The notes below the pieces were generated by a model, which did not search any database, was not told where the DNA came from, and saw nothing but the letters and a program-made list of their open reading frames with translations. A DNA stretch of 37,873 nt, taken from Mariniphaga sp. GTDB taxonomy: Bacteria > Bacteroidota > Bacteroidia > Bacteroidales > Prolixibacteraceae. The DNA lies in assembly GCA_025355585.1 (NCBI GenBank), contig JANXZJ010000028.1, positions 1-37,873 of the forward strand, in the 5' to 3' direction. Made by a program: the position numbers and the translations under genes. This document shows, piece by piece, positions 28,406 to 32,633 of this stretch (the stretch's first letter is position 1; the number at the start of each line of letters is the position of its first letter).

Positions 28406-29197
28406 TTAATATTTTAGTCTTGAAATAAAATCATGACAAGCAGTTGCCGGATTTTCTGATTTCATAAAATTCTCTCCCATCAAAAAGCCGTTAAAGCCAC
28501 GTTTACGCAGAAAATTCACTGTCTCCGGATCGCTTAATCCGCTTTCTGATATTTTTACTGACTTGGTTGGAAGCCGGTCAAGCAATTTCAGCGAACGATC
28601 CATGTCAACTTTAAAATCTTTGAGATTACGGTTGTTAATGCCGATCAGGTCAATTTGCATGTCAATCTTATCAATTTCGCCTTCATCGTGTAGTTCAAGC
28701 AGTACCTCCATTCCCAATTCGTGGGCGATAGCGGTAAAGCGAGCGATTTCTGATTTCTCTAAAACAGCCGCAATCAGTAAAATAACATCAGCATTCAAAA
28801 GCCGGGATTCAAAAAGCTGGTATTCGTCGACCATGAAATCTTTTCGAAGTAGCGGAGTAAGCGGATTTGCGTTCCTTGCGGCCGTAAAATCGGCGGTGCT
28901 GCCACCAAAATACTTCCCGTCAGTCAGAACCGACAATCCTGATGCACCGGCATCTGAATATCCTTTTGTAACTATTTTGGGCTGAACACGATCGTTAATA
29001 ACGCCCTTAGATGGTGATCGTCTTTTAAATTCCGCAATAATACCACTTGCTCCGAAAGATTGTAATTGCTCTGAAAGTGAATTCCGGGCAATGCTCAAAT
29101 CAAGTTTAGATTGTAGTTCTGACAAAGGGATTTTCAGTTTCTGCTCCAAAACCTCTTTCTTACGGTTTGCTACAATCTCATCCAATATTGTGCTCAT
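28406..29197 (-). CDS. trpC: Indole-3-glycerol phosphate synthase
   Basis: Closes the indole ring from CdRP. It has 263 residues from ATG at 29197 (MSTILDEIVANRKKEV). The open frame extends 25 codons further upstream, but those codons lie inside trpD, and the ATG at 29197 overlaps the trpD stop as ATGA, a translational-coupling arrangement. Active-site landmarks: Glu-56/Lys-58 in IIAEFKRRSPSKG, VLTDGKYFGGS, LLRKDFMVDEYQ, ADVILLIAAVL, IGINNRNLKDFKVD and SESGLSDPE, with C-terminal GFLMGENFMKS. Confidence 0.96.
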   Translation of the reverse strand: MSTILDEIVANRKKEVLEQKLKIPLSELQSKLDLSIARNSLSEQLQSFGASGIIAEFKRRSPSKGVINDRVQPKIVTKGYSDAGASGLSVLTDGKYFGGSTADFTAARNANPLTPLLRKDFMVDEYQLFESRLLNADVILLIAAVLEKSEIARFTAIAHELGMEVLLELHDEGEIDKIDMQIDLIGINNRNLKDFKVDMDRSLKLLDRLPTKSVKISESGLSDPETVNFLRKRGFNGFLMGENFMKSENPATACHDFISRLKY

Positions 29198-30186
29198 TGC
29201 AAAGAAATTAGTTTTGTAAAAACTTTCAATGCTTTTCCTCCAAGCAGTGAGGATTTGGCTGCTTCGATGCATTCCTCAATTCCTTTCTCCGGGAAGTAAG
29301 TTGCGAGGGCCATGGCGGCATTTGAGATAACCACCGAATTCTGTGCAATTGTCCCTTTTCCGTTAAGTACATTCACAAAAATAGCAGCTGTTCCGGGCAC
29401 ATCACCCGAACCGGCCAATTCTTCCGCTTTAACAAGCGACATCCCAAGGCTGGAAGGTGAAAGTATCCGATCTGATTTGTTGGTAAGCACTTTAAAGTCA
29501 CCAGTAAGAGAAATTTCGTCGTAGCCATCGAGGCTGTGAATGATGCAATAATTGATTGCGCTCTTTTGATAGAGATAGTTATACAAGCGGGCAAGTTCAA
29601 GGCTGAAAACACCGACAATCTGATTCTGCGGTCTTCCGGGATTTACCATTGGACCGAGCATATTGAAAAAGGTTTTTAGTCGTAATGCACGACGAACCGG
29701 TCCCACGTTTTTCATTGCAGGATTGAAAAGTGGTGCGTGAAGAAACGTGATTCCGCAATCGGCCAGCTCATTTCGTAACCGGTCGTGATCATTTGAAAAT
29801 TTATACCCCAGATGTTCCATTACATTCGACGATCCACATCCCGATGAAGCGGCGTAATTACCATGCTTGGCAACAGTAGCGCCTGCTCCGGCAACTACGA
29901 ATGCGGATAAGGTGGAAATGTTGAAAGTGTCTTTTCCGTCGCCACCTGTTCCGCACAGGTCGATCGTATTAAATGCTGATAAATCAATTGGAATACAGGT
30001 TTTTAACAGTGCATTGCGAAATCCGGCAAGTTCATCAATGCTAATTGTGCGCATGTTGAAGACAGTAATAAAGGCTGCAATTTCCGCATCGGAGTGTTTT
30101 CCACTTGCTATTTCGAGCAGGATTTCTTCTGCTTCTTTTATCGTTAACCTTTTGTATTCGAAAAGGTAATTTAGAATATCTCTCAT
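29194..30186 (-). CDS. trpD: Anthranilate phosphoribosyltransferase
   Basis: Joins anthranilate and PRPP. The 330-residue protein has an N-terminal helical domain and the PRPP site GTGGDGKDTFNIST (residues 79-92), KHGNYAASSGCGSSNVMEHLG beginning at Lys-107, and the LRLKTFFNMLGPMVNPGRPQNQIVGVF strand region with anthranilate-site residues. It is separate from TrpG here, unlike the fused GD protein of some enterobacteria. Its stop overlaps the trpC start by 4 bases. Confidence 0.97.
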   Translation of the reverse strand: MRDILNYLFEYKRLTIKEAEEILLEIASGKHSDAEIAAFITVFNMRTISIDELAGFRNALLKTCIPIDLSAFNTIDLCGTGGDGKDTFNISTLSAFVVAGAGATVAKHGNYAASSGCGSSNVMEHLGYKFSNDHDRLRNELADCGITFLHAPLFNPAMKNVGPVRRALRLKTFFNMLGPMVNPGRPQNQIVGVFSLELARLYNYLYQKSAINYCIIHSLDGYDEISLTGDFKVLTNKSDRILSPSSLGMSLVKAEELAGSGDVPGTAAIFVNVLNGKGTIAQNSVVISNAAMALATYFPEKGIEECIEAAKSSLLGGKALKVFTKLISLQ

Positions 30187-30831: not shown

Positions 30832-32241
30832 TTATTTGATTTCTTTGGCCATGATAATCGCCTTTTTCAAAGCAGCCAGTTTATTTCCAACCTCTTGCAA
30901 TTCACTTTCTTCGTCAGATGCTGCAACAATACCAGCTCCCGCCTGGTAGAAGAGTGTATTGTTTTTGCTCAGGAACGAACGAATCATAATGGCGTGGTTG
31001 AAGCGGTTGTCGAAACCAATAAAACCGATACATCCGCCGTAATAGCCTCGATTCTGGTTTTCGTATTGATCAATGAGTTCCATTGCTTTAAATTTTGGTG
31101 CTCCCGAAAGTGTTCCGGCCGGAAAGGAATCACCCATCACACGGACAGGATTTGATCCCTCGGGAAGTATTCCTGTAACTTTCGAAACCAGATGAATCAC
31201 ATGGGAATAGAATTGTACCTCGCGAAAAAGTTCAACTTCCACGTTTGTAGCATTGCGGCTTAGATCATTACGGGCAAGGTCGACCAACATCACATGCTCT
31301 GCATTCTCTTTGGGGTCATTCGAAAGTTTTTCAGCCTGCAAACGATCCTGTTCATCATTTCCGGTTCTTCGGACAGTTCCTGCAATAGGATTGATTGATA
31401 CTTTGCGTTGATTTATCTGTAGCTGTGCTTCAGGTGATGATCCGAAAATCTTGTAATTTCCGTAATCGAAGTAAAACAGGTAAGGTGACGGGTTGATTGA
31501 ACGCAGTGCGCGGTAAACATTGAAATCGTCGCCTGAAAATTGCTGCGCGTATTGCCTCGAAAGAACGATCTGAAATACATCACCTCTGAAGCAATGTTTT
31601 TTCCCTTGGGTAACCATCGTTTTATATTCCACATCTGTAATATTTGAGCTTTCACCATCAACGGTATCAAATGAAAAGGTAGCGAAATTGCGGCTGGTCA
31701 GTAAATCCTCAATTGCATTAAGCGAAGATGTTTCTCCTTCGAAAAGATTTTCAATCAACTGGATACGATTCTGAAAATGATTGATTGCGATGATGTAATG
31801 ATAAAAAGCGTAGTGAACCTCAGGAATAGCATATGCCGGATTTACCGGATTTTTAAATTTGATCGTCTCGAAATACTGTACCCCATCATAACTGACATAG
31901 CCGAAAAACCCGTTGGCAGGAAGTTGGGGTAAGTGACTTTCTGCCTTGAAGCATTCAAAAAACGATTCCATTTCATCGGCAAGTTGTCTGTTTTTCGTGA
32001 TCTGCCCAATTTCGGTTTGACCGTCAGGATATTTTTTGGTGGTTTTGAATTGCTCTACCTCGATAGATGCCTCTGGTTTAAGGCATATAAAGGAATAACT
32101 GTTCTCGAGACTGTGATGATCGGAACTTTCGAGTAGCAGTGCATTCGGAAAAATATCGCGCATTTTAAGGTAAACACTTACTGGCGTGACTGTATCGGCT
32201 AAGATCTCTCGTACGCTGGTTTTAAAGTTGTATTGTTTCAT
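30832..32241 (-). CDS. trpE: Anthranilate synthase component I
   Basis: Commits chorismate to tryptophan. The 469-residue protein has the feedback site motif LLLESSD (Leu-35 to Ser-40), which binds tryptophan in the family, so enzyme-level inhibition is expected on top of attenuation. Catalytic landmarks are VFQIVLSRQY, FGSSPEAQL, INPIAGTVRRT, HVMLVDLARNDLSR, FPAGTLSGAPKFKAMELI, GYYGGCIGFIGF and FYQAGAGIVAASDEESE. Its ATG at 32241 stands 27 bases after the U-run of the second attenuator terminator. There is no Shine-Dalgarno; the bases before the ATG are A/T-rich. Confidence 0.97.
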   Translation of the reverse strand: MKQYNFKTSVREILADTVTPVSVYLKMRDIFPNALLLESSDHHSLENSYSFICLKPEASIEVEQFKTTKKYPDGQTEIGQITKNRQLADEMESFFECFKAESHLPQLPANGFFGYVSYDGVQYFETIKFKNPVNPAYAIPEVHYAFYHYIIAINHFQNRIQLIENLFEGETSSLNAIEDLLTSRNFATFSFDTVDGESSNITDVEYKTMVTQGKKHCFRGDVFQIVLSRQYAQQFSGDDFNVYRALRSINPSPYLFYFDYGNYKIFGSSPEAQLQINQRKVSINPIAGTVRRTGNDEQDRLQAEKLSNDPKENAEHVMLVDLARNDLSRNATNVEVELFREVQFYSHVIHLVSKVTGILPEGSNPVRVMGDSFPAGTLSGAPKFKAMELIDQYENQNRGYYGGCIGFIGFDNRFNHAIMIRSFLSKNNTLFYQAGAGIVAASDEESELQEVGNKLAALKKAIIMAKEIK

Positions 32242-32268: not shown

Positions 32269-32304
32269 AAAAAAAACGGCTTACCGTGGTCCGATAAGCC
32301 GTTT
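32269..32304 (-). terminator. trp attenuator 2 terminator (T2)
   Basis: On the minus strand AAACGGCTTATCG (32304-32292) pairs with CGGTAAGCCGTTT (32286-32274) in a 13-bp stem with one G-U pair and a 5-base loop, followed by eight U (part of the run also pairs with the A-rich base of the stem). It is a strong intrinsic terminator directly before trpE, so it must be bypassed for operon expression. Confidence 0.92.
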
Positions 32305-32337
32305 CATCCCTAAAATAGGGAGACACGAAGGTTATCC
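32293..32337 (-). promoter_or_regulatory. Candidate antiterminator of trp attenuator 2
   Basis: On the minus strand GGATAACC (32337-32330) can pair with GGCTTATC (32300-32293) with one bulged base, and encloses a small TCCCTA/TAGGGA hairpin (32321-32307). This pairing uses the 5' arm of T2 and so excludes it. Segment GGATAACC starts 3 bases after the leader-2 stop codon, where a ribosome finishing the peptide would cover it. Confidence 0.65.
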
Positions 32338-32339
32338 TT

Positions 32340-32402
32340 TCACGTTTGTAAAAAGTAATCCTGCCACCGCCATGCCCGGTTATTTTGAGTTAAATTATTC
32401 AT
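32340..32402 (-). CDS. trp leader peptide 2
   Basis: A 20-codon reading frame starting MNNLTQNNRAWRWQ and ending at TGA (32342-32340). Trp codons occupy 32372-32370 and 32366-32364, separated by one Arg codon. It lies after terminator T1 and before T2, so a ribosome stalled on these codons would leave the downstream GGATAACC free to form the T2 antiterminator. The upstream context AACA before the ATG is A-rich, as usual in Bacteroidota. An alternative out-of-frame ATG (32373) gives a 13-codon peptide without Trp and is less meaningful. Two Trp in 20 codons is well above chance, but fewer than in leader 1. Confidence 0.72.
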   Translation of the reverse strand: MNNLTQNNRAWRWQDYFLQT

Positions 32403-32450
32403 TGTTAGCGAATTTTGAATCTTTAGTATTAAATGCAATATGTGAAAAAT

Positions 32451-32484
32451 AAAAAAACCGGCTTACCTGTGAAAGGTAAGCCGG
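32451..32484 (-). terminator. trp attenuator 1 terminator (T1)
   Basis: On the minus strand CCGGCTTACCT (32484-32474) and AGGTAAGCCGG (32468-32458) form a perfect 11-bp stem with a 5-base loop, followed by seven U and then AUUUUU. It lies 35 bases beyond the leader-1 stop codon. Confidence 0.93.
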
Positions 32485-32556
32485 CTGGTATTTTAAAAAA
32501 TACAATATGGCTTCACCTCTAACAGAGGAAAGTGTTGCCCCACCAAAGCCATATTG
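32474..32556 (-). promoter_or_regulatory. Antiterminator and pause-hairpin segments of trp attenuator 1
   Basis: Segment 1, CAATATGGCTT (32556-32546), covers the first Trp codon and is perfectly complementary over 11 bases to AAGCCATATTG in segment 2 (32513-32503). Segment 2 also begins with AGGTGAAGCC (32518-32509), which pairs with segment 3, GGCTTACCT (32482-32474), with one bulge. Segment 2 thus imitates segment 4 (AGGTAAGCC). This is the complete 1:2 / 2:3 / 3:4 logic of ribosome-mediated attenuation: stalling at Trp codons frees segment 2 to sequester segment 3 and prevent T1. Confidence 0.82.
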
Positions 32557-32572
32557 ATTTAAATGTTTTCAT
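32519..32572 (-). CDS. trpL: trp leader peptide 1
   Basis: A 17-codon frame MKTFKSIWLWWGNTFLC ending in TAG. Three Trp codons stand at 32551-32549, 32545-32543 and 32542-32540, that is W-L-W-W. It lies just before terminator T1 and some 330 bases upstream of trpE. The start is preceded by an A/T-rich stretch (TTTTAAAA), normal for this phylum. The Trp cluster coincides with the RNA segment that pairs with segment 2, as in classical trp attenuators. Confidence 0.9.
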   Translation of the reverse strand: MKTFKSIWLWWGNTFLC

Positions 32573-32601
32573 TTTTAAAATTTTATTGATGCAAAGAAAA
32601 G

Positions 32602-32633
32602 CAAATTTTATTAATACAACAATATTTTGCCAA
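32602..32633 (-). promoter_or_regulatory. Candidate promoter of the trp operon
   Basis: On the minus strand TTG (32633-32631), a 20-base spacer, then TAAAATTTG (32610-32602). This resembles the -33/-7 pair, but the -7 element carries three bases instead of two between TA and TTTG. Transcription would begin about 20-25 bases before the leader-1 ATG, as expected for an attenuator leader. Confidence 0.4.

Follow-up and report, generated by a model that had tools for sequence, protein, structure and literature searches.

The window, which is the whole 37,873-nucleotide stretch of contig JANXZJ010000028.1 that was analysed, belongs to a draft genome of 4.09 Mb that is 84.3% complete. The host is placed in the Prolixibacteraceae because the named relatives whose TrpE is 75-97% identical to its own include MAGs labelled Mariniphaga or Prolixibacteraceae, plus Prolixibacter. 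The trp operon runs on the minus strand from 32241 down to 25758 in the order trpE, G, D, C, F, B and A. Its first gene, trpE (30832..32241, minus strand), was identified by Pfam (PF00425 and PF04715), as were TrpG, TrpD and TrpC, and the remaining ORFs of the operon presumably encode TrpF, TrpB and TrpA, named from their translations. The trpC ORF as listed (28406-29272) overlaps trpD (29194-30186) by 79 nt, both being on the minus strand, and an internal ATG (MSTILDEIV) is a likelier start for trpC than the listed one. The 331 nt upstream of trpE contain two units, each of which runs from a leader peptide through an antiterminator strand to a terminator. A preliminary description of this DNA had claimed two leader ORFs and two terminators in series before trpE, and all of the attenuator parts that it named are indeed present at 32269-32572 on the minus strand.

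Anatomy and predicted switching of the two units

Unit 1, whose leader reads WLWW, lies downstream of a promoter-like motif at 32591..32622 on the minus strand (TTG at 32622-32620 and TTTTCTTTGC at 32600-32591, the boxes having been placed by eye). Its leader peptide ORF, MKTFKSIWLWWGNTFLC (32572-32519, minus strand), has 17 codons with Trp at codons 8, 10 and 11 and is present in all 14 of the genus members for which upstream sequence was taken, from 18 genus genomes searched. Region 2, the antiterminator strand AGGTGAAGCC (32509..32518, minus strand), resembles the terminator 3' arm AGGTAAGCC, and the antiterminator amounts to 10-11 bp. Terminator 1 (32451..32484, minus strand) consists of a stem at 32484-32458 and a T7 tract at 32457-32451, with a predicted energy of -20.7 kcal/mol. 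In folding predicted for successive ribosome positions, an A site placed on any of the Trp codons allows 11 region 2:3 pairs to form before region 4 is made, and a ribosome at the stop codon allows no antiterminator pairs at all; with no ribosome, the 1:2 hairpin is predicted to fold alongside the terminator. The predicted folds of unit 1 thus hold an antiterminator that is mutually exclusive with an intrinsic terminator followed by a U tract. Across 75 genomes the 2:3 duplex has an energy of -14.5 with its own region 3, which weakens to -11.8 when region 3 is exchanged between genera; in all nine genera compared, the own pairing is the stronger. Once the whole transcript has been made, the terminator is the stabler fold wherever the ribosome stands, and the switch therefore rests on the order of folding.

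Unit 2 begins with the leader peptide ORF MNNLTQNNRAWRWQDYFLQT (32402-32340, minus strand), which has 20 codons with Trp at codons 11 and 13, and continues with region 2, the candidate antiterminator strand ACGTGAAAGGATAACC (32330..32345, minus strand), which is weak in this genus. Terminator 2 (32269..32303, minus strand; stem 32303-32275, T8 tract 32276-32269; -17.2 kcal/mol) follows, and its T run ends 27 nt from the start codon of trpE. The frame of leader 2 and its Trp codons, on which the claim of a second attenuator depends, are conserved: W-R-W is found in 13 of the 14 genus members with upstream sequence, the exception being G015 (L016), in which unit 2 is broken, and terminator 2 is intact along with leader 2 in 13 of the 14. 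Ribosome-position folding predicts 9 antiterminator pairs before region 4 with the A site on the Trp codons and none with the ribosome at the stop codon. Measured against shuffled sequences, however, the longest uninterrupted pairing of unit 2 fails to exceed chance in all 13 genus members that possess the unit (p 0.12-1.0), and the window's own antiterminator, taken as a bipartite duplex, is equalled by 63 of 200 shuffles, which is not above chance. The bipartite duplex is stronger in G013, G014 and G009, where it is matched by 4, 3 and 6 of 200 shuffles respectively, and the antiterminator is unrecognisable in G004, G007 and G016. The last three (L013, L012 and L015 respectively) are genomes of 2.8-2.9 Mb.

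Outside the window's genus the pairing of unit 2 beats shuffles at p 0.05 in 67 of 98 cases. It sits at a fixed place, a median of 19 nt past the last Trp codon, and between lineages it changes on both sides (CCGUG:CACGG, GGAAGUU:AACUUCC, GAGAGGU:ACCUCUC). With 6 rows bearing a unit-1-like ORF removed, the comparison covers 111 upstream regions, of which 8 come from outside the family, and its duplex means are -16.7 for the own pairing, -14.4 for swapped and -11.8 for shuffled strands. As for the window itself, where two complete attenuators had been described, unit 1 stands, as do the layout and the terminator of unit 2, whereas the unit 2 antiterminator does no better than chance. As a type of attenuator unit 2 is well supported; in the window it is weak, and its Trp response in this genus is uncertain because the antiterminator is weak there.

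In some members of the window's genus unit 2 appears to be in decay. On one alternative reading, only unit 1 still works in this genus, and unit 2 is a decaying ancestral attenuator, at most a leaky terminator. This reading would fit the W-R-W of leader 2, where most other family members carry WWW, the failure of the window's 2:3 pairing against shuffles together with its unrecognisable form in three relatives, and the broken unit of G015. It is nevertheless considered rather unlikely, given that leader 2 and terminator 2 are intact in all but one of the genus members surveyed, that a bipartite antiterminator of 9 pairs is predicted when the ribosome stands on the Trp codons, and that in G013, G014 and G009 this duplex exceeds most shuffles.

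Distribution and history of the tandem arrangement

Of the 140 genomes of the family, 127 have a recognised TrpE, and 123 upstream regions were classed, G006, G010, G105 and G150 being without usable upstream sequence. Both leader ORFs are also present in the cultured relatives Prolixibacter bellariivorans and P. denitrificans (L044 and L045). The tandem arrangement is present in 77 of these regions, with a toxin-antitoxin insertion between the units in 2 more and with a damaged first terminator in 1. The conserved RNA core of unit 1, to which the next section is devoted, occurs without attenuator 1 in 17 regions, attenuator 1 occurs without the core in 4, 17 have neither and 5 are too short to class; L016, L113, L021, L126 and L153, as well as the four genomes with attenuator 1 and no core, were classed by hand. 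Nine of the 17 regions with neither belong to g8 and g14, in which no leader was found, and in the three of these whose upstream sequence was inspected trpE comes after an apparent end of trpB. Also classed as having neither is G018 (L029), which has a single WFWW unit with a terminator resembling that of unit 1 rather than that of unit 2, so that the unit missing from it may be unit 2.

In the two genomes with an insertion, where terminator 1 was read by eye, a pair of toxin-antitoxin genes, a nucleotidyltransferase and a HepT-like partner, lies between terminator 1 and unit 2 (L230 544-1168 in G026; L231 788-1114 in G099). Both genes were identified by Pfam in L230, as was the first in L231, the second in L231 being recognised by eye; the nucleotidyltransferase is presumably of the MNT type. 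The same type of pair stands at the upstream end of L125 (G112), where the gene end was read by eye, and apparent hepT remnants, again judged by eye, occur in the longer g9 spacers (L122, L022).

That the two units lie on the same RNA, as had been proposed, appears likely from the spacer between them. Measured from the T tract of terminator 1 to the start of leader 2, it has a median of 21 nt and is at most 40 nt in 62 of 75 cases, the window's own being 48 nt, and there is therefore no room for a second promoter in most of them. Upstream of the core, the motif TTG-N18-23-T[AT]N2-4TTT[GA] is found in 67 of 90 genomes, against a shuffled mean of 19.9; this count is to be taken as supportive only, because the pattern was modelled on Bacteroidetes promoters and then loosened after the sequences had been seen. 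Spacer and motif together make a transcription start between the units unlikely.

Outside the family, 62 loci with at least 400 nt upstream were surveyed, one of which, L074, is actually a family member; at least one trp unit was found in 55 of the 62, and 2 loci were flagged as having two units. The tandem flagged at L077 was judged a false call, its first ORF resembling the end of a coding frame. At L096, outside the family, two WWW-type trp units stand in series and look real, and G042 (L027), from another family, also has two WWW units in series; these two tandems look to have arisen independently. Unit 2 shares its place and its WWW codons with the single trp leader that is usual outside the family. 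Judged by sequence, unit 2 is best read as corresponding to the phylum's usual single trp leader and unit 1 as an addition within the Prolixibacteraceae. A tree of TrpE and TrpG (77 rows, built by a quick method with no bootstrap, rooted at the midpoint and with several long branches) unites all 44 tandem, 14 core-only and 4 attenuator-1-only rows together with G018 in one group of 63 rows (SH-aLRT 96).

The conserved core of unit 1

The 1:2 hairpin region of unit 1 contains a conserved RNA core of about 50 nt. In the window it is matched by the covariance model R1 at 32487..32570 on the minus strand with 77.1 bits (E 4.5e-13), the window sequence (L002) being itself among the 53 rows used to build the model. 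Alignment A1, which holds 53 of 78 distinct cores, gives a branched hairpin in which the letters of the inner stem hardly vary across the 53 genomes, and the predicted parts are P1 with a bulge, a mini-hairpin with the loop GUGGUG or GUGGGG, and P2. By the pair counts of this alignment, the 5' strand of P1, CAATATGGCTT (32546..32556, minus strand), overlaps the first Trp codon, and its 3' strand is AAGCCATATTG (32503..32513, minus strand). In the proposed structure 94.4% of cells pair, compared with at most 53.4% when it is slid, and the covariation score exceeds that of all 500 shuffles. Changes on both sides are found in 6 of the 19 pairs, and the covariation is moderate because 52 of 500 shuffles reach that number. 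Six of the 15 P1 pairs are invariant, and these inner pairs therefore give no covariation support either way. Taken singly, eight core sequences fold 1.5 to 4.7 standard deviations below their shuffles.

Matches to R1 occur in 101 of the 140 family genomes, at one place in each, and 53 sequences had built the model; wherever a second match was listed among the 140 genomes, it fell on the opposite strand of the same place. Core and trpE share a contig in 97 of the 101 (93 plus G015, G143, G026 and G099), and in G082, G105, G112 and G132 the core lies near a contig end without trpE. In a search of 393 genomes of the order, 11 gave a match at E up to 0.1, of which 3 are convincing, all of them Prolixibacteraceae. 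The next-best match, in G399 (38.9 bits, about 1501-1587 of L228), falls within an apparent glycosidase coding sequence and was set aside as chance; the other 7 are weaker. Over the core, no Rfam 15 model reaches its cut-off either in the window or in the 15 related loci searched, some of which lack a core. Considered purely as sequence, the core itself is plainly conserved.

The core also occurs apart from its attenuator. No terminator lies within 110 nt downstream of it in the core-only genomes of g12 (4/4), g15 (4/4), g46 (1/1) and g47 (6/6), nor in G076 and G035, and in 15 of the 17 core-only genomes there is no ATG, GTG or TTG in the Trp frame back to the upstream stop. One core from a core-only genome lies at L183 746-830. 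The exceptions with an in-frame start are G154 (ATG 90 nt upstream) and G131 (TTG 30 nt upstream), and in g15 the upstream stop begins 15-18 nt ahead of the first TGG. In G028 (L031) and G035 (L196), the TGGTGG of the core can be read in frame from an AUG that the core itself contains (MAWWG... and MANSWW... respectively), and because of this neither genome counts as having a core devoid of Trp codons; in G035 that frame continues into leader 2 and includes a total of six Trp codons. In g15, g46 and g47, one block of 36 nt and one of 16 nt are identical in 11 of 11 core-only genomes, eight of which are 26-47% identical at the fourfold sites of trpE, a level that is saturated. A 34-mer is exact in the same 11 of 11; among tandem genomes that share this sequence type, 43 of 59 have it exact, and the core-only G076 is without it. 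The reverse separation is found in four g2 species, which have attenuator 1 without a detectable core, and their relative G162 has the core. Given that 10 of the 14 core-only rows group with tandem rows in the tree, these have probably lost the attenuator and retained the core; for the 4 g12 rows, attenuator loss or some other history could each be the case. With the core found without the attenuator and the attenuator without the core, attenuation alone does not easily explain the core, which probably has a second function beyond the Trp leader peptide and terminator 1.

Among the readings of this second function, most weight is given to an RNA-level sensor or a protein site, followed about equally by an internal ribosome start and by pausing or weak termination. 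It is tentatively suggested that the core represents a regulatory RNA of a new class, in the form of a small branched hairpin that would directly recognise a Trp-pathway metabolite, tRNA-Trp or a protein and would control the trp operon without ribosome stalling, a leader peptide and terminator having joined it in most core-bearing genera and having been lost again in others. It is unlikely that the core is only the pause hairpin and 1:2 stem of unit 1, or a weak terminator, conserved for transcription control of that sort, with the core-only genomes being recent losses. The core is the 1:2 stem in tandem genomes, pausing at a hairpin of the 1:2 type is part of the known attenuation mechanism according to an excerpt of PMC1183508, and a T-rich stretch follows the core, with six T directly after it in G035, where the terminator-like hairpin scores -18.3. 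This reading is nevertheless difficult to reconcile with core-only genomes that are spread over g12, g15, g46 and g47, with one in g18 and one in g19, and whose blocks are identical in 11 of 11 despite saturated fourfold sites. The 34-mer is likewise kept more strictly in these 11 than in tandem genomes, though the core-only G076 lacks it, and four g2 species have attenuator 1 without a detectable core.

Similarly improbable is that translation of another short ORF (MASVVGSS or similar) begins at the AUG inside P1 (AAUAUGGCU), in which case the core would be a leader translated in another frame. All 53 aligned cores have this AUG, and in G028 and G035 TGGTGG lies in its frame; however, the frame stops after 8 to 21 codons in 12 of the 17 core-only genomes and enters leader 2 in 5, its codon 3 is variable, and the AUG is located in a stem. 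Least likely is that the inverted repeat is a DNA repressor site beside the promoter and not an RNA structure: the P1 arms, just downstream of the promoter-like motif, are near-invariant as a protein site would be, but the distance from arm to arm is not constant (47 to 57 nt), and P2 and outer P1 change on both sides, in a structure whose pairing falls away when it is slid, all of which makes a DNA operator less probable.

Two further candidates were rejected. One was that in core-only genomes the 3' strand of the core acts at long range as the antiterminator of terminator 2; it was dropped because in g12 the arm of terminator 2 has changed and the core has not (by eye). A nascent-peptide sensor of the TnaC kind is not favoured for leader 1, because its third codon positions vary little more than the other two (by eye) and its frame is lost in core-only genomes.

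Proposed mechanism and comparison with known systems

It is considered probable, on the predicted folds and the comparison of relatives, that one leader RNA carries two ribosome-mediated attenuators that both read Trp, and that the core of unit 1 is an added conserved element with a separate function. When Trp is scarce, a ribosome stalled on the Trp codons would expose region 2, which would pair with region 3 and block the terminator; when Trp is plentiful, region 2 would be covered by the ribosome and the terminator would form; in the absence of translation, region 2 of unit 1 would be locked in the 1:2 hairpin. RNA polymerase would have to pass both gates to reach trpE; here the anatomy is observed and suggests the gating, and the response of unit 2 is the least sure in the window's genus. 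In addition, the 1:2 hairpin of unit 1 would act without need of the Trp leader peptide or terminator 1. Multiplied repression and different Trp thresholds, which had been attributed to the two units, could both result from such an arrangement. What goes beyond the preliminary description is that unit 2 is the usual leader of the phylum and unit 1 is lineage-specific, with a core that outlives its attenuator.

Serial attenuators for the same amino acid would provide a direct test of sensitivity theory, with two gates on one RNA, and natural relatives with a single unit, with a double unit or with one half lost are available for comparison. The core, for its part, is an RNA element whose conservation reaches further than that of the attenuator around it and which, if it acts alone, would regulate tryptophan synthesis across much of the Prolixibacteraceae.

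The E. coli trpL attenuator comprises a short Trp-rich ORF, exclusive 1:2, 2:3 and 3:4 pairings and a U-run terminator. The present leader has a Trp-rich ORF, predicted exclusive pairings and a U-run terminator in common with it, and differs in having two units in series and a 1:2 stem that is nearly fixed in sequence. Searched against Rfam, unit 1 gave nothing relevant at the cut-off; below it, Phe_leader reached 22.4 of 55 bits and, in L118, Thr_leader 29.7 of 55. Unit 2 matches in place and anatomy the Bacteroid-trp leader RNA, a Trp-codon leader before trpE in Bacteroidetes (Rfam RF01692, listed in the excerpted text of Weinberg et al. 2010, PMC2864571). The window lies below the gathering score of RF01692 and is absent from the listing at E up to 1; among 15 related loci searched, one, the family member L191, scores 49.8 bits against the cut-off of 49. 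In excerpts of open-licence PMC literature on tandem trp attenuators, the Bacteroidetes trp leader and paired leader peptides, the arrangement was not recognised among the matches listed.

Of the described systems with a double leader, the Salmonella mgtCBR leader resembles the present one in having two leader ORFs before the same operon on one RNA, which is probable for the present leader, as presented in an excerpt of Lee and Groisman 2012 (PMC3641672). According to that excerpt, the mgtCBR leader ORFs read ATP and proline, and the metE leader, unlike that of mgtCBR, has two terminator sites; in the present leader a separate terminator belongs to each unit and both units would read Trp, which sets the arrangement apart from mgtCBR as the excerpt describes it. 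The tandem riboswitches of B. clausii metE resemble the present leader in their two terminators in series, which are said in the same excerpt to act independently (PMC3641672). As portrayed there, those riboswitches sense two different ligands by RNA directly, whereas the two gates upstream of trpE would be governed by translated leaders.
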